This document shows, one piece after another, positions 30,933-38,824 of a stretch of 64,000 nt of DNA. Position 1 is the stretch's first letter; each line of letters starts with the position of its first letter. This DNA is from Paracrocinitomix mangrovi (GTDB lineage Bacteria; Bacteroidota; Bacteroidia; Flavobacteriales_D; Crocinitomicaceae), in the NCBI RefSeq assembly GCF_019740355.2, contig NZ_CP091819.1, positions 310,001 to 374,000 of the forward strand, written 5' to 3'. Both the position numbers and the translations under genes were made by a program. Below the pieces are notes generated by a model that saw only the letters and a program-made list of their open reading frames with translations, was not told where the DNA came from and made no database searches.

Positions 30933-32105
30933 ATGAAAATATTTATTCCAATTTTAACAATCACTGCATTGATGGCTACTACTTCATGCAAAAAACAAAA
31001 AGTAAATAACCTTAAAGAGGATTTTAAAAACAATTATTCAGAGATAGTATATGCAAACTATCAAGATGCTTATCAGGATGCACAGTCACTACAAAATTCA
31101 ATTATTGATTTTGTAGATAATCCTTCTGAGGCAAGTCATCAAGATGCTAAACAGGTTTGGTTACAAGCAAGAGAGTCGTATGGAACTACAGAAGCTTTCA
31201 GGTTTTCTGGTGGTCCTATTGATGATGAAGATGGACCGGAAGGGGAGTTGAATGCCTGGCCATTAGATGAGGCATTTGTAGATTATGTAGAGGGAAATGC
31301 ATTAAGTGGAATCATTAATAATTCTGCGATTACAATTGATGCAGCAACTTTAAGATCCATGAATGAAGAAGGAGGTGAAACCAATATCAGTATAGGTTAT
31401 CACGCTATCGAATTTCTGTTATGGGGTCAAGATGATGCTAATACGTCATTAAAAACAGCAGGCGATAGACCTTATACTGATTATGTTGTTGGTTCTGGGG
31501 GTACAGCTGATAACCAGGATAGAAGAGGCTTATATCTTAAAACTTGTGCGGCTATATTGGTAGAAGATTTAGCAAGTTTAGTTGATGAATGGAAAAATGG
31601 TGGTGCATATAGATCAACTTTCTTAGCACAGGATGCTGATTTAAGTATGCAGCATATCTTAACCGGAATAGGAGTATTGGCAAAATCTGAACTTGCTGGA
31701 GAAAGAATTTTTACGGCACTTGATAATCAAAATCAAGAAGATGAACATTCATGTTTTTCAGATAATACACACAGAGATATAATCTTGAATTTTGAAGGGA
31801 TTCAGCAAATTTACACTGGAATTTATATCAAAAATGATGGGTCTGAAGTTTCTGGAGTTGGTTTAAGCGATATTATTGATAAACAGGATAAAAAATTAAA
31901 TGCAGAATTAAGTGATTTGTTCACTGCTTGTGAAGCAAGTGTTAATTCAATATCTGTTCCTTTTGATGATGCTTTAACACAAGAAACTCCTGGTGGAACG
32001 GGTTCAATTAATGAATCTGTTGTAAATTTGAGAAAGCTAGGTGATAAAATTGCGGAAGCTGCAGCAGCTCTAGGTTTAACTATAGATACGTCATTACCAG
32101 AGTAG
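30933..32105 (+). CDS. Imelysin-family lipoprotein (peptidase M75-like)
   Basis: 390 aa. Lipoprotein signal with lipobox TTSC. The helical body carries the imelysin signature GYHAIEFLLWGQD (GxHxxE with H157 and E160) plus WLQARESYGTTEAFRFSGGPID, typical of the insulin-cleaving membrane protease/IrpA group. Members bind iron or help its uptake in the periplasm or at the surface; protease activity is doubtful for most. First gene of a three-gene operon (7 bp gap, then a 1-bp overlap) with a di-heme protein and a second imelysin. Confidence 0.9.
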   Translation: MKIFIPILTITALMATTSCKKQKVNNLKEDFKNNYSEIVYANYQDAYQDAQSLQNSIIDFVDNPSEASHQDAKQVWLQARESYGTTEAFRFSGGPIDDEDGPEGELNAWPLDEAFVDYVEGNALSGIINNSAITIDAATLRSMNEEGGETNISIGYHAIEFLLWGQDDANTSLKTAGDRPYTDYVVGSGGTADNQDRRGLYLKTCAAILVEDLASLVDEWKNGGAYRSTFLAQDADLSMQHILTGIGVLAKSELAGERIFTALDNQNQEDEHSCFSDNTHRDIILNFEGIQQIYTGIYIKNDGSEVSGVGLSDIIDKQDKKLNAELSDLFTACEASVNSISVPFDDALTQETPGGTGSINESVVNLRKLGDKIAEAAAALGLTIDTSLPE

Positions 32106-32112
32106 AAAAAAT

Positions 32113-33498
32113 ATGACCATAAAACCCCAAATATTCTTGCTTGCAGGCCTTTTATTGGTGGCTTGTAGAAAAGATCTTGATCATTATGATCAAGAGGAAT
32201 TGAGTGGTGGATATAACGGTACGGTTTTTTTAACATCTTCTGGGGCGTTTTCGCAACAAATGCCTGGGATTGGAGCTGATAAAGAGCTCCAATTCTTTGT
32301 TGGTAATAGTTTTTTTAATCAAAATTGGGTGTCGGCTCCTTCGTCAACTACCGCCAGAGATGGTCTAGGTCCCTTGTTTAATGCGCGTTCTTGTTCGGCG
32401 TGTCATTTTCAAGATGGAAGAGGAGAGCCGGTTCAAGATTTAGGTGACAATTCAAATGGCTTTTTACTAAGGCTAAGTGTACCTGGTGAAGGAGTTCATG
32501 GAGAGCCTTTGCCTGATCCTGTGTACGGTCCTCAATTCAATGATTTGGCGGTAAGTAATGCATTGGATGAGGGTGATATTTTTGTTACTTATGAATATAT
32601 ATCCGGCACTTATGAAGACGGAACACCTTATGAGCTTAGAAAGCCTTTTTATTATGTGAGTAATCTCAATTATGGAAGTATTGCTTCAAATGTTATGATG
32701 TCTCCTCGAATTGGGCAGCAAATGATAGGGTTGGGGTTATTGGAAGCTATTGATGAACAAGATATTTTAGCGCTGGCAGATGAAGCAGATGTTGATGGTG
32801 ATGGAATTTCAGGTAAGCCAAATTATGTTTGGGATTTCCAAAGTGAATCAGAGAAAATGGGGAGATTTGGATGGAAATCAGGTCACCCTTCTGTGATGCA
32901 GCAGGTAGCAGGAGCTTTAATTGGTGATTTAGGGATAAAATCAAACTTATTTGATACTGAGAATCATTCTGCTGCACAATCAAATTTGGATACTTTGCCT
33001 GATGGAGGGATAGTTGAAATAGAGGAGGATGATTTTGGAAAACTGGTGCTGTACTGCAGTTCGTTGGCTGTTCCGGCTAGAAGAAATGTGGATGATGAAT
33101 CTGTTGTAAGAGGACGAGAGTTGTTCAGAAGCCTAGATTGTGCAAAATGTCATACAGTGGCTTTTAATACTGGAAATTCGCATTATCTGAGCTATTTGAA
33201 TAATCAAACAATTCATCCGTATTCAGATTTGTTGTTGCACGATATGGGACCTGGATTGGCTGATAATAGACCTGATTTTAAAGCTAATGGACAGGAATGG
33301 AGAACCCAGCCTTTGTGGGGGATCGGCTTAATTTCAATTGTCAATGGTCATACTTTTTTCTTGCATGATGGCAGAGCAAGAAGTTTGGAAGAGGCCATAC
33401 TATGGCACGGAGGAGAGGCGGAAAATGCTAAAAATCAGTTCAAATCTCTCGAATCTTCTGATAGACAGGCATTAATAGATTATTTAAATTCACTTTAA
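32113..33498 (+). CDS. Di-heme oxidoreductase-like lipoprotein (DHOR/DUF1111 family)
   Basis: 461 aa. Signal with lipobox LVAC. Two c-type heme motifs are visible: CSACH in NARSCSACHFQDGRGEP, and CAKCH in LFRSLDCAKCHTV, both CxxCH. Late landmarks are QPLWGIGLI, HDGRARSLEEAILWHGGEAE and DRQALIDYLNSL. The family resembles di-heme cytochrome c peroxidases and is often next to imelysin genes, as here. It probably passes electrons in the periplasm, perhaps for iron reduction; that is inference. Last base of its TAA is the first base of the next gene. Confidence 0.9.
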   Translation: MTIKPQIFLLAGLLLVACRKDLDHYDQEELSGGYNGTVFLTSSGAFSQQMPGIGADKELQFFVGNSFFNQNWVSAPSSTTARDGLGPLFNARSCSACHFQDGRGEPVQDLGDNSNGFLLRLSVPGEGVHGEPLPDPVYGPQFNDLAVSNALDEGDIFVTYEYISGTYEDGTPYELRKPFYYVSNLNYGSIASNVMMSPRIGQQMIGLGLLEAIDEQDILALADEADVDGDGISGKPNYVWDFQSESEKMGRFGWKSGHPSVMQQVAGALIGDLGIKSNLFDTENHSAAQSNLDTLPDGGIVEIEEDDFGKLVLYCSSLAVPARRNVDDESVVRGRELFRSLDCAKCHTVAFNTGNSHYLSYLNNQTIHPYSDLLLHDMGPGLADNRPDFKANGQEWRTQPLWGIGLISIVNGHTFFLHDGRARSLEEAILWHGGEAENAKNQFKSLESSDRQALIDYLNSL

Positions 33499-34523
33499 TG
33501 AGATTTTCTTTTTTAGTTTTTTTGATCTTCCTAATTGGTTTTAGTTCATGTAAAAAAAGTCGATTTAAAAGGAGTGATTTTCTACAAGAATTTTATGATT
33601 ATAAAGTGAAGCCAGACCTGCTTAATTTGAATTCACAAGTATTTGATTTACAAAATAAATGGTTAGATTACTTAAATAATCAAAGTAATAGTAATTTTGA
33701 TTTATTCAAAGATCAGTTTGATTTAACTTTTGCTGCTATTGATAATGCGACTTTTTATAATTTGGGGGATATTTCTCAAACCTATATTTACAATAAATTC
33801 AATAAGTCGGGGATTGATACAGTAAACGCCTGGGGTTTTTATGCTGATAATACAGTTGTTACAACATCTGCAGTTGCTTCTTTACCTAATAATCAAAAAG
33901 GATTTTATTTTATTGAATATCTGGTGTTTAGCGATTTTTCTCAGGATTCATTATCAAGTTTGAAATACCAAAGTTGGATTTCTTCTTGTATTGAGGATTT
34001 GTCAAACAATGTTGGAGATTTGGAGTTTTCCTGGAGTATCTACGAAAAAAACTTTACATCTAACACAGATGATGGTGTCAGTGGGTCATTTAATGTTGTT
34101 TGCAATAGAATTATTCATTCATTGGAAGATTTGATTGATAAGCGCCTAAATCCGGTATTGGAAGCAATGGATACTGATCAGATAATAGGAGGGAATTCAG
34201 GTAATGGGTTGAAAAGCGTTAAGCGATTGTTCTTTCAATTAGAAGCGGTTTATCTGGGGAATGGAGATCAACAATTTAATGCCATTCATAATTATTTAAA
34301 AAAGAAAGATAAAAAGCTAGCGGATTCAGTAACGGAGCGGTTTTCCGACATCTCTTCAGATTTAAATTCAATGAATAATGAAATGGAATGGTATCTGTTG
34401 AATGATGTTGCTGCTTTAGAATCATTGAAACAGAAATTAACTGATTTGTTAGTAGTTTTTAAGTTGGATGTTACCAATGCAATGGGGGTGATTTTAACTT
34501 TTGGAGATACAGATGGTGATTAA
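33498..34523 (+). CDS. Imelysin-like lipoprotein with the signature His replaced
   Basis: 341 aa. Lipobox GFSSC. Helical, same overall layout as the first gene of the operon, including a C-terminal helical repeat. The position of GYHAIEFLLW reads GFYFIEYLVF (135-144), so the conserved His is Tyr 137 while the Glu (E140) is kept. Metal binding at that site is likely changed. It may be a structural or scaffold partner of the intact imelysin and the di-heme protein. Assignment rests on position and pattern, not on the motif. Confidence 0.75.
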   Translation: MRFSFLVFLIFLIGFSSCKKSRFKRSDFLQEFYDYKVKPDLLNLNSQVFDLQNKWLDYLNNQSNSNFDLFKDQFDLTFAAIDNATFYNLGDISQTYIYNKFNKSGIDTVNAWGFYADNTVVTTSAVASLPNNQKGFYFIEYLVFSDFSQDSLSSLKYQSWISSCIEDLSNNVGDLEFSWSIYEKNFTSNTDDGVSGSFNVVCNRIIHSLEDLIDKRLNPVLEAMDTDQIIGGNSGNGLKSVKRLFFQLEAVYLGNGDQQFNAIHNYLKKKDKKLADSVTERFSDISSDLNSMNNEMEWYLLNDVAALESLKQKLTDLLVVFKLDVTNAMGVILTFGDTDGD

Positions 34524-34592
34524 ATTAGTGTTTTTTAATTAATTGATAATCAGTGTTTAATAACTGTTTTAAAATAAATTTTCAATTTTTTA

Positions 34593-34625
34593 TTTGGAAT
34601 TAAAATTAATTCTGTTTTACCTTTG
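34593..34625 (+). promoter_or_regulatory. Promoter of the methionine operon leader
   Basis: -33 TTTG (34593-34596), 21 bp, -7 TACCTTTG (34618-34625). Transcription would start near 34632, giving about 325 nt of leader before metX. Confidence 0.75.
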
Positions 34626-34659
34626 TCGCGTCGATTGCGGTTCTCGTAACTTGTGGTCG

Positions 34660-34771
34660 ATTTATAAAGAAGAGGCGAGAGATCAGGCTCGTTGACCCTC
34701 TGGCAACCCTCAAGAAGGACTTGAAAGGTGCCAATTCCTGCCTCCCGATTAAAAGGGATGGAAATATAAAT
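34660..34771 (+). promoter_or_regulatory. SAM-I riboswitch
   Basis: Closing stem P1 is ATTTATA (34660-34666) with TATAAAT (34765-34771). Inside are the SAM-I landmarks in order: AAGAAGAGGCGAGAGATCAG, CTCGTTGACCCTCTGGCAACC (the GCAACC element), GGTGCCAATTCCTGCC, and a P4 hairpin with CCC/GGG arms. The aptamer senses S-adenosylmethionine and lowers expression when it is high. No T-tract terminator directly follows P1; instead a poly-Cys leader ORF starts 11 nt later, so the expression platform is unusual. Confidence 0.93.
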
Positions 34772-34781
34772 TGGAAACAAG

Positions 34782-34886
34782 ATGACAATTTACATTCAAA
34801 ATCAGGTTTTAAAAAGTTCATTATCTAACGCATTAATGCGTCATTTTAATTGTTGCTGTTGTAGCACTTGCATGTGCTGTTGTTAG
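34782..34886 (+). CDS. Cys/Met-rich leader peptide (probable attenuator)
   Basis: A 34-codon ORF between the SAM-I aptamer and metX, ATG 34782 to TAG 34886. The first 23 residues are ordinary (ending NALMRHFN); the last 11 are CCCCSTCMCCC: eight Cys, one Met, one Ser, one Thr, with four Cys codons in a row at 34851-34862 and three at 34875-34883. A shorter start at ATG 34836 would still cover the run. This is what a ribosome-stalling leader that senses cysteine/methionine supply looks like. ACGCATTAATGCGT (34828-34841) overlaps the inner ATG, AGCAC/GTGCT (34863-34878) lies in the Cys run, and GAAGTG/CACTTC (34916-34931) follows the stop. Confidence 0.8.
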   Translation: MTIYIQNQVLKSSLSNALMRHFNCCCCSTCMCCC

Positions 34887-34915
34887 TCTGAAACAATAGT
34901 CCAAGTATCGTTCAG

Positions 34916-34931
34916 GAAGTGTAATCACTTC
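34916..34931 (+). promoter_or_regulatory. Hairpin between leader peptide and metX
   Basis: GAAGTG-TAAT-CACTTC, a perfect 6-bp stem, 30 nt after the leader stop and 28 nt before the metX ATG. The following bases lack a strong T-run, so it is a weak terminator at best, or part of an anti-terminator or start-occluding structure controlled by leader translation. Confidence 0.5.
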
Positions 34932-34958
34932 TAAAATCAACCTTTATAAACAATTAAA

Positions 34959-35993
34959 ATGTTAGAATACTATATACATAATCAAGAGTTTGCGTTTGAG
35001 TCTGGCGAAAAGTTAGATCACTTAAAAATTGCATATCAAATTATCGGAAATCCTGAAGCTAAAAAGTTGATATGGGTTTGTCATGCATTGTCGGGGAATA
35101 CAGATGTCCTGGATTGGTGGGGAGGTTTGTTTGGGATAAATAGACTGTTTGATCCTTCAGAATATAAGATTGTTTGTGCAAATGTGCTAGGGTCTTGCTA
35201 TGGTTCAACCGGGCCGGATGATTTTGAGGAAGGATCAGTGTTTCCTTTGGTGACAATCAGAGACATGGTTAATGCGCATGAGGTCCTTCGCAAGGTGTTG
35301 GGAATTGAAAGGGTGGATGTCTTAATTGGTGCTTCTCTTGGTGGGCAACAGGCTTTGGAATGGTCTATTCAAAATCCGGAATTTTCTGATCATTTGATTT
35401 TGATAGCTACAAATGCTGTGCATTCTCCTTATGGAAGAGGTTTTAATGAAGCTCAGCGAATGGCATTAAAGGCTGATCCAACATTTGGACAAGAAAATGG
35501 AGGAAAGCAAGGTTTGGCTGCTGCCAGAGCAATTGCAATGCTTTCATACAGGTCTTATAATGATTTTAGCATAAAACAGGCAGACACAGAAGGGCGAATA
35601 AATGATTTTAATGCTTCTTCCTATTTGAATTATCAAGGATCAAAATTCATTGAAAGGTTTCAGGCTAAGTCATATTATGTCTTGTCAAAATCCATGGATA
35701 GTCATGATGTAGGAAGGGAGAGAGGAGGAGTTGAGAAGGCTTTAAAGCTGATCAGTGCCAAAACATTAGTTGTTGCTGTTGATTCTGATGTATTGTTTCC
35801 TCAGTTGGAGCAGAAAAGGTTGGTTGAGGGGATTCCTGATGCAGTTTTAGGCTTTATTAAATCGCCTTATGGGCATGATGCTTTTTTGATAGAATATGAG
35901 CAGTTAAGCGGGATAATAAAAGACTTTTTATACAATGATTTTAAAATAAACAAACCAACTGTAGTGAAAACTACATTAAAAAATGTGAGATGA
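34959..35993 (+). CDS. metX: Homoserine O-acetyltransferase (MetX)
   Basis: 344 aa alpha/beta hydrolase-fold acyltransferase. Landmarks: CHALSGNTDVLDWWGGLFG (oxyanion region), NVLGSCYGSTGP, the nucleophile elbow GASLGGQQALEW (S126), a late VAVDSDVLFP (Asp) and YGHDAFLIE (His). It acetylates homoserine as the first committed step of methionine synthesis. The N-terminus is direct with no extra domain. The start follows the riboswitch/leader region, and the stop overlaps the next start by ATGA, so the two are coupled. Confidence 0.95.
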   Translation: MLEYYIHNQEFAFESGEKLDHLKIAYQIIGNPEAKKLIWVCHALSGNTDVLDWWGGLFGINRLFDPSEYKIVCANVLGSCYGSTGPDDFEEGSVFPLVTIRDMVNAHEVLRKVLGIERVDVLIGASLGGQQALEWSIQNPEFSDHLILIATNAVHSPYGRGFNEAQRMALKADPTFGQENGGKQGLAAARAIAMLSYRSYNDFSIKQADTEGRINDFNASSYLNYQGSKFIERFQAKSYYVLSKSMDSHDVGRERGGVEKALKLISAKTLVVAVDSDVLFPQLEQKRLVEGIPDAVLGFIKSPYGHDAFLIEYEQLSGIIKDFLYNDFKINKPTVVKTTLKNVR

Positions 35994-37222
35994 GAAAAGA
36001 ATTAAAAATAGGATTATTTGGATTTGGATGCGTGGGATCAGGGCTTTATGATGTGCTGAATAAGAGTAAGTTATTAAATGCTTCCATTGATAAAATAGTG
36101 GTTAAAGATCCTTTAAAGCAAAGGTCTTTGCCGGAAGATCAATTTTATTATGACCCCAATGTTATTCTTGATGATCCTGAAATAAATGTGGTGGTTGAAT
36201 TGATTGATGATGCTGATGCGGCATTTGATATCGTTACAAAGGCTTTTAAAAAAGGAAAACATGTGGTAAGTGCTAATAAAAAGATGATAGCAGAGCACTT
36301 GATTGAGTTGTTGACATTAAAAGATGAATATGGTGTTTCATTTTTATATGAGGCTTCTTCTTGCGCTAGTATACCGGTGATCAGAAACTTAGAAGAATAT
36401 TATAATAATGATAGTTTAGCGGGGATAGAAGGGATTTGTAACGGTACCACTAATTATATTTTGACCCGTTTGCAGAATGAATTAAAGTCTTTTGATGAAA
36501 TCTTAAAAGATGCGCAAGATGTAGGTTTTGCTGAATCTGATCCAACTTTAGATATTGATGGATTTGACAGTAAGTACAAGTTGCAAATTTTGATTTTGCA
36601 CACCTTTGGCTTGATTACACAGCCTGAGGAGGTATTGAATTTGGGGATTCGCTATATAAAACAAAGAGATATTCAATATGCCAAGGAAAAAGGTTTGCGT
36701 ATAAAGTTGGTTTCATTTGCTCGACGTATTGATGATAAGATTGTAGCATATGTAGCTCCACAAATAGTTGACGATCAGAATTTTGCTTTTGAAATCAATT
36801 ACGAGTTTAATGGGGTTTCTATTGAGGCATTGTTTTCTGATAAGCAAGTGTTTATAGGAAAGGGAGCGGGTAGTCATCCTACCGCTTCAGCAGTTCTTTC
36901 TGATGTTTCGGCTCTTCAGTTTGATTACAAATATGAATACAAAAAGTTTGATGAATGCAAAGCGCAAATGGCTAAAGATGCTATAGTGAAAGTGTTTGTA
37001 TCAACTGAACAAGTTGATTTGCTTGAAAAAGTTGATTTTATTGAAGTAGAAGAGGAGTTTGTTGCGGTAGATTATGCTTATAAAGTAGGAAGACTGAAGT
37101 TGTCGCAATTATCGCATACTTTTTACAGAGAAAATCCTGAATTGTTTATTTCTTTTTATGGAGATAATGACATTGAATTACTTTCTTTAAGAGAAGAATT
37201 TAAAGAATCTGTAACGGTATGA
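35990..37222 (+). CDS. hom: Homoserine dehydrogenase
   Basis: 410 aa. NAD(P)-binding fold at the N-terminus (FGFGCVGSGLYDVL), then VVELIDDADAAFDIV, GKHVVSANKKMIAEH, and catalytic-domain landmarks NGTTNYILTRL and ESDPTLDIDGFDSKYKLQIL. It reduces aspartate semialdehyde to homoserine, feeding MetX next door. The tail beyond about 330 (FVSTEQVDLLEKVDFIEVEE) may be a small regulatory domain, not clearly ACT. ATGA overlaps link it to metX before and the OsmC-like gene after. Confidence 0.93.
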   Translation: MRKELKIGLFGFGCVGSGLYDVLNKSKLLNASIDKIVVKDPLKQRSLPEDQFYYDPNVILDDPEINVVVELIDDADAAFDIVTKAFKKGKHVVSANKKMIAEHLIELLTLKDEYGVSFLYEASSCASIPVIRNLEEYYNNDSLAGIEGICNGTTNYILTRLQNELKSFDEILKDAQDVGFAESDPTLDIDGFDSKYKLQILILHTFGLITQPEEVLNLGIRYIKQRDIQYAKEKGLRIKLVSFARRIDDKIVAYVAPQIVDDQNFAFEINYEFNGVSIEALFSDKQVFIGKGAGSHPTASAVLSDVSALQFDYKYEYKKFDECKAQMAKDAIVKVFVSTEQVDLLEKVDFIEVEEEFVAVDYAYKVGRLKLSQLSHTFYRENPELFISFYGDNDIELLSLREEFKESVTV

Positions 37223-37632
37223 AAATTAAACTAGAAAGAATAGGTGAGCCATTTCATTTACTTGCTACAAATGAAGAAGGGGCTAAAATAGAATATGACG
37301 CTAAAGAAGATATTGGTGGGACAGGCAAAGGGTTTAGACCAATGCAGGCTGTGGCGAGCTCTTTAGCAGCTTGTTCGTCAATAGATGTTTTGCTCATTTT
37401 AAAAAAGCAGAAAATTGAATTAGAGTATTACAATGTGAGTGTTGAGGCAGAAAGAAGAGAGGAGCATCCAAGAGTGTTTACTCATATTCATTTAGAATTT
37501 GAGTTCAAAACAAATGGTCCGTCAGATAAACTTGAAAGAGCGGTAGGTTTAAGTGTTGACAAGTATTGTTCGGTGGCACGCATGCTGGAGTCTACCGTAA
37601 AAATAACTTCAAGTGTTAAGTTAGTACAATAG
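37219..37632 (+). CDS. OsmC-like peroxiredoxin-fold protein
   Basis: 137 aa. The two active-site cysteines of the OsmC/Ohr family are in place: C52 in LAACSSIDVL and C117 in VDKYCSVARML. The rest matches the short OsmC fold (YDAKEDIGGTGKGFRPMQAVASSLA). Members reduce organic hydroperoxides or sulfur species with lipoyl or thiol partners. Being coupled by ATGA to hom, inside a sulfur amino-acid operon, suggests it handles reactive sulfur or persulfide by-products of sulfhydrylation; that link is inference. Confidence 0.88.
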   Translation: MKIKLERIGEPFHLLATNEEGAKIEYDAKEDIGGTGKGFRPMQAVASSLAACSSIDVLLILKKQKIELEYYNVSVEAERREEHPRVFTHIHLEFEFKTNGPSDKLERAVGLSVDKYCSVARMLESTVKITSSVKLVQ

Positions 37633-37666: not shown

Positions 37667-38824
37667 ATGAAAACAGAGACAAGACTCATAAGAACTCAAG
37701 TTGAAAGAAGTGATAATAAGGAACATTCAGTACCTCTTTACATGACTTCAAGTTATGTGTTTGATGATGCCGATCATATGGCAGCCTTGTTCAATGATGA
37801 AGAAGAAGGTTATATATATAGTAGGTATTCAAATCCCAATATTTCTGAGTTTGTACAAAAGGTAGCCGACTTGGAGAGGACCGAAACGGGCTGGGCTACA
37901 GCATCCGGAATGGCTGCGATATTCTCTGTTTTTGGAGCATTTTTGGAGAGTGGAGATGAAATTTTGTCTTCAAGATCTGTATTCGGCTCTACCCATAAGT
38001 TGTTTACTGAAATACTACCTAAATGGGGGATTAAAACTACTTATGTAGACTTTGATGATGTAGATAATTGGGCTGATTCCATTAATAAAAGAACTAAAAT
38101 TTTATATCTGGAAACTCCTACTAATCCTGGGGTTGATATAATTGATTTGGCCAAAGTAGGGGTGATTACTAAGCAAAACGGATTACTTTACGTAGTAGAC
38201 AACTGTTTTGCGACTCCAATCAATCAAAAACCTGCTGATTTTGGTGCTGATTTAGTGATTCACTCTGCTACAAAGTATTTTGATGGACAGGGAAGAACAA
38301 TGGGAGGTATAATACTTGGAAGCGAAGAGCATATTCTTAAAATTCAAGGTTTCGCAAGGCATACGGGTCCGGCTTTATCTCCTTTTAATGCCTGGACCTT
38401 GTCAAAATCTTTGGAAACATTAGCGTTAAGAGTAGAAAGACACAATGATAATGCCCTTGAAATTGCCAAAAGATTAGAAAAACATGAGGCGGTTGAATGG
38501 GTTAAATATCCATTTTTGGCATCACACCCTCAATATGAAATAGCTAAAAGTCAAATGAAAGGTGGTGGTGGAATTGTGACTTTTGAAGTAAAAGGTGGTT
38601 TAGAAAAAGGAAAGTCATTTTTGAATTCACTTAAAATGCTCAGTTTAACAGCCAATTTAGGGGATTCTAGATCAATAGCTACTCATCCAGCAAGCACAAC
38701 GCATTCTAAGTTAACAGAAGAAGATAGAATGAAAGTAGGTATTAGTCCCGGTTTGATTAGGATTTCTGCAGGATTAGAGCATTTGGAAGATATTTGGGCA
38801 GATATAGAGCAGGCTTTAAGTTAA
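37667..38824 (+). CDS. O-acetyl/O-succinylhomoserine sulfhydrylase or cystathionine gamma-synthase (MetZ type)
   Basis: 385 aa, Cys/Met-metabolism PLP family. Landmarks: YSRYSNPN, the ATASGMAAI segment, YLETPTNPG, VVDNCFATP and the PLP lysine in HSATKYFDGQG (K203). The late SLGD/NLGDSRSIATHPASTTHSK block is typical. With MetX making O-acetylhomoserine, direct sulfhydrylation to homocysteine is the most likely job, though cystathionine synthase cannot be excluded from motifs. It follows the OsmC gene by 34 bp and ends the operon; its last 9 bp overlap the convergent YqcC gene. Confidence 0.88.
   Translation: MKTETRLIRTQVERSDNKEHSVPLYMTSSYVFDDADHMAALFNDEEEGYIYSRYSNPNISEFVQKVADLERTETGWATASGMAAIFSVFGAFLESGDEILSSRSVFGSTHKLFTEILPKWGIKTTYVDFDDVDNWADSINKRTKILYLETPTNPGVDIIDLAKVGVITKQNGLLYVVDNCFATPINQKPADFGADLVIHSATKYFDGQGRTMGGIILGSEEHILKIQGFARHTGPALSPFNAWTLSKSLETLALRVERHNDNALEIAKRLEKHEAVEWVKYPFLASHPQYEIAKSQMKGGGGIVTFEVKGGLEKGKSFLNSLKMLSLTANLGDSRSIATHPASTTHSKLTEEDRMKVGISPGLIRISAGLEHLEDIWADIEQALS

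Follow-up and report, generated by a model that had tools for sequence, protein, structure and literature searches.

Why does the leader of a methionine operon carry a SAM-I riboswitch and, close behind it, a short open reading frame that ends in a run of cysteine codons, and what might the two do together? The leader lies in the window (the whole 64,000-nucleotide stretch of DNA that was analysed), where all features described here are on the forward strand. Using cmscan, we located a SAM-I (S-box) aptamer at 34659-34772 (Rfam RF00162; 78.7 bits, E-value 7.7e-17, gathering cut-off 44.4, model positions 1-108 of 108), in agreement with the 34660-34771 that a first-pass annotation, made from the letters alone, had given. 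It is the sole Rfam match above cut-off within the 64-kb window; SAM binding and an effect on expression are inferred. Nine bases separate the match from the ATG at 34782 of a 34-codon leader ORF (uORF; MTIYIQNQVLKSSLSNALMRHFNCCCCSTCMCCC; 34782-34886, with a TAG ending at 34886), which is in the ORF list and has counterparts in related leaders. The annotation had placed this ORF 11 positions past 34771 and noted its cysteine-run end, and both points hold: the C-terminus reads NCCCCSTCMCCC, with 8 Cys and 1 Met among the last 11 codons (34851-34883). From the sequence and from enrichment in relatives, we propose that this cluster contains the stall sites.

The gene order downstream of the uORF, starting at 34959, is metX-hom-osmC-metZ. 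The genes are metX, homoserine O-acetyltransferase-like (34959-35993; NCBIfam TIGR01392, 2e-93, under the model's curated cut-off), a homoserine dehydrogenase gene (35990-37222; NF004976, 3.2e-94, over cut-off), an OsmC-family gene (37219-37632; NF008009, 1.2e-23, under cut-off), and a metZ-like gene of the O-succinyl/acetylhomoserine sulfhydrylase family (37667-38824; NF006003, 8.7e-150, slightly under cut-off). Only the dehydrogenase gene thus exceeds the curated cut-off of its best model, and the uORF peptide had no NCBIfam family match. A promoter-like site, for which we assumed a TTTG at -33 with its spacing, was picked out by eye at 34593-34625 (TTTG at 34593-34596, 21 nt, then TACCTTTG at 34618-34625). 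The part of PMC9723704 that was available gives TAnnTTTG as the flavobacterial sigma-A box. Farther 5' of the operon, 30933-34523 holds three lipoprotein-like genes, with one weak cytochrome c match and one weak EfeO match; this group is perhaps an iron-uptake cluster.

A terminator scan of 34520-35000 detected no terminator directly 3' of the SAM-I P1, as the annotation had remarked. Its single terminator-like match (1 against 0.3 expected) was a weak hairpin inside the uORF, at 34828-34841 (ACGCATTAATGCGT, tail CATTTTAATT). Between the uORF and metX (34887-34958), there was no intrinsic terminator match, and the leader does not meet this criterion of a classical transcription attenuator. All three hairpins named in the annotation are present in the sequence. 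The 34828-34841 hairpin also appears in the predicted minimum-free-energy (MFE) fold, as does GGAAGTG-TAAT-CACTTCT at 34915-34932, which has no T tract 3' and no terminator match; hairpin-capable AGCACTTGCATGTGCT within the Cys run (34863-34878) is absent from the leader MFE. The MFE fold contains a further hairpin that spans the uORF stop codon (CTGTTGTT with AACAATAG; 34876-34900).

The Cys run is not readily produced by base composition. At least 8 Cys in the last 12 residues occurred in 0/20000 dinucleotide shuffles of the 186-nt leader, and at least 3 Cys in 836/20000. TGYTGYTGYTGY occurs 44 times in the organism's own genome, versus 6 times for the reversed control. Among 30 of these 44 places, only this locus has an in-frame Cys run that ends a short ORF outside a longer open frame; one further short frame with CCCCC (two overlapping TGYTGYTGYTGY matches) lies inside a 462-nt open frame. 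A search of 59 genomes with the uORF peptide gave 18 matches at E-values up to 1, the best non-self one (E 0.004) with an internal stop, and these were not taken further because the query is too short. No second RNA family was found in 20 loci (19 distinct places, L141 lying inside L124) at Rfam E-values up to 0.5.

Recurrence and composition of the uORF in relatives

The annotation had proposed a search for a Cys-ending ORF 3' of SAM-I in related leaders. We scored a uORF when its ATG was at most 26 nt from the model end, its length was 8-69 codons, and at least 3 Cys fell in its last 16 residues. MetX was present in 62/120 family genomes (the G070 match is weak) and 28/150 order genomes (14 of these 28 belong to other families); an RF00162 search of those 76 genomes returned 140 matches in 71 genomes, and all 140 leaders were inspected. 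Further leaders came from the 30 best SAM-I matches of a 200-genome family search, which served as negatives because 29 precede metH and one a CGS-type gene, from a class draw of 90 genomes (87/90 rows used; two were the window's own and already counted, and G353:C32 was under cut-off) and from a phylum draw of 41 (40/50 rows new and used, some from genomes of the same class), for a total of 292. Genes were labelled from their N-termini and from motif patterns. Four leaders were scored as lacking the uORF despite a nearby Cys-rich frame: G007 (TTG start) and, with the uORF farther 3', G343, G361:C22, and G422.

Within the family, the uORF was found in 34/56 metX-first and 7/7 metY-first leaders (together 41/63), in 6/6 dehydrogenase-first leaders, all of genus g2, and in no leader of other targets (metH 0/81, CGS-type 0/1, other 0/1, unassigned 0/1). 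Other families of the order had it in 1/2 hom-first leaders and in none before metX (0/1), osmC (0/3), or metH (0/7). The class draw yielded 6/9 metY-first leaders and 1/8 unassigned ones, with metH at 0/55, CGS-type at 0/9, metE and metF at 0/1 each, and probable metX at 0/3. All phylum-draw counts were zero (metY-first 0/21, metH 0/2, CGS-type 0/5, probable metX 0/2, unassigned 0/10). The proposed search thus came out positive, at 41/63 in the family and 6/9 in the class versus 0/136 for metH. When family, order, and class are taken together and the phylum draw is excluded, metX/metY leaders stand at 47/73 and metH leaders at 0/143 (Fisher p 4.7e-29, descriptive only because the leaders are related), with CGS-type at 0/10. 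AT-rich leaders often contain short ORFs, and a functionless chance ORF behind a riboswitch would be one more of them; against this metX/metY versus metH split and the absence of a comparable run from the 20000 window shuffles, we find that explanation scarcely credible.

The relatives' uORFs include MKKFKTSRVNILTPILGVDYNAIFLSSMNCCCCCCMC and MEAQEKITFQISSRETRLSQVILSSFSSTMCCCCWCMCCC. A contig search with MetX gave one locus, L058 (a Bacteroidetes MAG), which was excluded from all counts; its order is SAM-I at 2332-2463, a uORF ending MRWCCGTCCPLC 13 nt on, an 81-codon ORF, and metX. The association has a limit, in that 22/63 metX/metY-first family leaders have no Cys run. All 22 are among the 56 metX-first leaders: in 8 the uORF is poor in Cys, in 13 metX follows P1 immediately, and in G007 no uORF opens with ATG. 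One genome, G065, has both forms, a metY-first leader with a Cys-run uORF (ending CCSCICCCCMHC; L339) and a metX-first leader without one, in which metX starts 8 nt after P1 (L335). Outside the family, G426 (L287) likewise has no Cys-run uORF; there the SAM-I P1 is followed, 11 nt on, by the start of an ORF whose N-terminus resembles MetX.

Spacing and composition are what the related leaders share. Of 51 uORFs, 50 begin 5-14 nt past P1 and the remaining one begins at 23, where the model end is apparently misplaced. In the 13 family leaders without a uORF, six of them of genus g2, metX itself begins 8-11 nt past P1, so what appears fixed is the distance from the riboswitch to the first ORF, whatever its product. 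The metH start is about 27-78 nt away, on the assumption of an aptamer of fixed length. The 51 uORFs are 28-46 codons long, apart from three of 12-21. Their last 16 codons hold 234 Cys versus 6 elsewhere, and Met accounts for 76/784 codons there versus 1/902 elsewhere; both Cys codons are in use (TGT 138, TGC 87). Counts of isolated TGY triplets by frame were not used, being confounded by ATG followed by T, and uORFs from the later-added family leaders are not in the composition tests. The uORFs thus meet the criterion of a leader-peptide attenuator: a short ORF with clustered codons for amino acids of the pathway, conserved in related leaders.

By contrast, the peptide outside the run is not conserved, with mainly non-synonymous differences in most of 15 pairs; judged by eye and by these pair comparisons, Cys/Met content is common and residue order is not, which fails the criterion of a nascent-chain arrest peptide. 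We infer codon counting rather than an arrest peptide because composition is shared and the peptide outside the run is not conserved. The very Cys-rich C-terminus, at times with His, Met, or Trp, could still mean that the peptide itself functions, in metal or thiol/redox binding or as a small-molecule-sensing arrest peptide, and not as a codon counter. Besides the non-synonymous change, the varying number and spacing of Cys speak against such a role, and the enrichment of Met alongside Cys and the association with met genes point to codons; we consider a functional peptide improbable.

Predicted pairing of the uORF with the metX start

A feature absent from the annotation is a perfect 13-nt complement between the uORF and the metX start. 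An anti-start strand at 34842-34854 (CATTTTAATTGTT; codons H21 F22 N23 C24 and the first base of C25), directly 3' of the 34828-34841 hairpin, matches the metX start strand at 34949-34961 (AACAATTAAAATG), which includes the metX ATG (34959-34961). Ranked by length across 46 window genes, it comes first, the runner-up reaching 10 nt. The 13-nt complement is not decisive in the window alone because 5/5000 shuffled window uORFs reach at least 13 nt. The leader MFE (-40.9 kcal/mol) contains the anti-start helix, with a z of -2.25 and 6/200 shuffles equally stable. The three hairpins that the annotation had stressed are, in this prediction, not the key structure; that place is taken by the long-range helix between Cys-run codons and the metX start.

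We compared cognate and swapped pairing of the uORF segment from 36 nt 5' of the first Cys to the stop with the start region (-25 to +6). The set of 52 uORF leaders became 51 (G045 out) and then 40 for the metX-first tests, after six metY-first leaders, G054 (hom-first), G077 and G088 (dehydrogenase-first), G119 (238-nt spacer), and G083 (contig ends) were left out; G251 and G037 were excluded throughout, and uORFs of the later-added family leaders are also absent. In the 40 metX-first leaders, cognate pairing was predicted to be 2.94 kcal/mol stronger than swapped pairing (p 5e-5). With one leader per genus (13 genera), the median p was 0.001 (range 0.001-0.025), which is the fairest figure because related leaders are not independent. 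The controls gave a weak cognate excess for the 5' part of the uORF (-0.58, p 0.02) and for the 31 nt 3' of the stop (-0.78, p 0.013), and none for metX codons 3-12 (+0.29, p 0.79). When the partner position was scanned, the effect was maximal for the segment centred at position -10 relative to the start codon (-2.98, p 0.0002), with others at -0.08 to -1.26. Across all 51 uORF leaders, metY-first included, it was weaker, with a genus mean z of about -0.9 to -1.0 (19 groups; versus other uORFs and versus shuffles). The attenuator criterion of a structure that a stalled ribosome could switch is therefore met for metX-first leaders (p 5e-5) and not for metY-first start regions. The window's genus provides three species with different sequences, and each is predicted to pair best with its own partner (cognate -13.2, -15.4, and -13.7; swapped -7.5 to -12.1), a pattern as expected of compensatory change.

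We then considered the predicted effect of ribosome position. In 28/51 leaders, a 31-nt footprint at the first Cys made the downstream start more than 1 kcal/mol cheaper to open. For the window, opening the metX start would cost 7.06 kcal/mol in the free leader, 4.45 with a ribosome at the first Cys, and 6.93 with one at the stop codon; the best footprint lies two codons 5' of the first Cys (3.05), and the first Cys ranks 14 among 34 positions. In the 40 metX-first leaders, a footprint at the first Cys gave a mean change of -2.06. This compares with -1.31 for a footprint at the stop (Wilcoxon p 0.024) and -1.20 for one placed ten codons 5' of the first Cys (p 0.085, not significant). The genus mean was below -1 at the first Cys in 9/13 metX-first genera (not g8, g11, g4, or g17). 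Opening of metX by a stall is thus the favoured direction, not a proven one; the models place the effect only broadly along the run, and whether Cys shortage would raise or lower metX output is inferred from predicted structures.

We regard it as probable that the leader is a serial sulfur switch, in which SAM gates the uORF and stalling at Cys/Met codons unmasks the metX start, with no expression, probing, or ribosome data to draw on. The annotation had suggested that cysteine/methionine supply exerts control, possibly under a SAM gate; the codon content, the uniform position of the uORF start just past P1, and the uORF-metX pairing agree with this, again in the absence of ribosome or codon-swap data. 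Judging by position, SAM-bound SAM-I would block initiation at the first start codon past P1, here that of the uORF. The codons that open the Cys/Met run would pair with the metX start region and its ATG, a pairing whose function is inferred, and would keep metX closed. At low SAM the uORF would be translated; if Cys-tRNA or Met-tRNA were short, the ribosome would stall on the run, cover the anti-start strand, and let metX open. If SAM were low and charged Cys/Met-tRNA plentiful, the ribosome would reach the stop codon and the helix would re-form. Maximal metX-hom-osmC-metZ output would be expected when SAM and charged Cys/Met-tRNA are both scarce.

Alternatively, SAM-I alone might regulate, with the uORF only coupling translation to a distant metX and the Cys codons incidental to a TGY-rich pairing strand. 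The 13 family leaders with SAM-I directly before metX fit this account, as do TGY repeats that double as pairing strand in some genera. On the other hand, the Cys codons stay in frame though interspersed with Met, Trp, and other codons, TGT serves as well as TGC, and metY-first leaders have Cys runs without start pairing; we give this alternative little weight.

Known leader systems, metY-first leaders, and other targets

Systems with related logic are known. In ermC a stalled ribosome frees a start site, and mgtA/mgtL combines a metal-sensing leader with a leader peptide; both respond to other signals, and neither is known to have SAM-I or a Cys run. Polycysteine leaderless uORFs of mycobacteria are reportedly cysteine-responsive attenuators, to judge from the title of Canestrari et al. 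2020. The sources cited below were available only in part, and what we say of them, including what they lack, holds for those parts. Cys-rich uORFs are described in mycobacteria (PMC4633059), and a 2026 discussion states that regulation of M. smegmatis cysteine genes by translation attenuation has been shown (PMC13236596). The mycobacterial uORFs share with ours a short ORF with a C-terminal Cys codon cluster before sulfur genes; the mycobacterial ones are leaderless and precede cysteine genes of Actinobacteria, whereas the Bacteroidia uORFs stand behind SAM-I and before metX/metY, with Met codons mixed in. The window uORF sits 3' of an aptamer that must be transcribed to act (an observation without start-site data behind it), and its context is a met operon, with the MetX relative L058 in a Bacteroidetes MAG.

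Cys-run leader peptides are also described in Actinobacteria, together with the LEU element, in which a run of Leu codons base-pairs with the Shine-Dalgarno box of leuA (PMC1262725). Regulatory codon runs near the stop are common to these systems and ours, and the LEU design resembles the anti-start strand in idea; they differ in having no riboswitch described, another amino acid or no conserved cys structure, and another phylum. The uORFC-8-2 motif before cysS in Rhodobacterales likewise has Cys codons in its uORF, with a stall on low Cys-tRNA proposed (PMC8632094), but only two of them, with an intrinsic terminator and without SAM-I. Closer in phylum, sORFs in long 5' UTRs are described for Bacteroides thetaiotaomicron (PMC7366714); the accessible text on leader peptides of that species and of F. 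psychrophilum names neither SAM-I nor Cys runs (PMC9723704, PMC7366714; supplements not covered). Direct translation attenuation by SAM-I is known (PMC2258182) and has in common with the window the aptamer class and control at a start site beside P1; in the window, however, the first start codon is that of the leader peptide and not of the regulated enzyme.

No published pairing of SAM-I with a Cys-run uORF was found in the open full-text literature; subscription papers were mostly uncovered, so absence from print is not established. We class the combination, which passes the Rfam test for SAM-I and would behave as a translational attenuator, apart from the actinobacterial systems. Neither a SAM riboswitch nor a leader peptide with a Cys codon run is new by itself; a serial arrangement in which the first acts on the second would make a composite regulator. 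The case also shows that an ORF 3' of an annotated riboswitch may go unnoticed because Rfam scans end at the aptamer.

The metY-first leaders behave differently in the pairing tests. In six from the family, the cognate segment paired no better with the start region than swapped ones did (+0.4, p 0.76). In 11 metY-first leaders (these six plus five of the six class leaders with a uORF, G361 left out), the Cys-proximal segment is predicted to pair weakly just 3' of the uORF stop (-1.55 kcal/mol, p 0.024) and not at the start codon, and some metY-first leaders, such as G014 and G074, have terminator-like hairpins with T tracts. These metY-first observations are compatible with ribosome-mediated transcription attenuation, in which a stall on the Cys run alters a terminator or Rho access and not start-codon accessibility, and classical amino-acid leader peptides act in this way. 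Leader-peptide attenuation has also been suggested for F. psychrophilum amino-acid operons, in the portion of PMC9723704 at hand. As an account of the window it is met by the lack of a terminator-like match from uORF to metX, which does not cover Rho-dependent control, and by the peak of cognate pairing at the start codon in the 40 metX-first leaders; we hold it to be unlikely there, without ruling it out. The metY-first leaders are perhaps, by inference, a second back end: SAM-I with a Cys-run uORF, without start-codon pairing, may act there on transcription termination. In five of six family metY-first leaders examined (L114, L123, L124, L129, and L130), GGGCCC occurs 34-47 nt past the uORF stop.

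Returning to SAM-gated translation of the uORF, we lean slightly towards a two-layer sulfur gate in Bacteroidia, in which the output of the riboswitch would be translation of a leader peptide that counts Cys- and Met-tRNA and unmasks the metX start, with one front end and different back ends in metX-first and metY-first leaders. If true, a single leader would read SAM, cysteine, and methionine; it would account for the adjustment of direct sulfhydrylation (MetX/MetY) in Bacteroidia to cysteine supply as well as to the end product, and riboswitch and ribosome logic within one RNA would be a directly testable case.

Other targets also occur. In G422 (L297), the order 3' of SAM-I is a terminator-like hairpin plus T tract, judged by eye, then a separate uORF with CCCCQKFAACCCKC at its end, then a PAPS reductase gene (PF01507, 3.6e-36), and this Cys-run uORF, because it precedes a PAPS reductase gene, points to cysteine supply as a signal. 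Six genomes of genus g2 have SAM-I and a 12-15-codon uORF (e.g., MKKRMCCCCYEK) before a Glu/Leu/Phe/Val dehydrogenase-family gene (L138, L139, L338, L368, L369, and L370; PF00208 and PF02812 checked for L139 only), an unexpected target for sulfur control. G361 has four SAM-I matches, three of which are followed by Cys-run frames (L199, L214, and L217); one of these frames sits 5' of an ORF that, by eye, resembles a TonB-dependent receptor.
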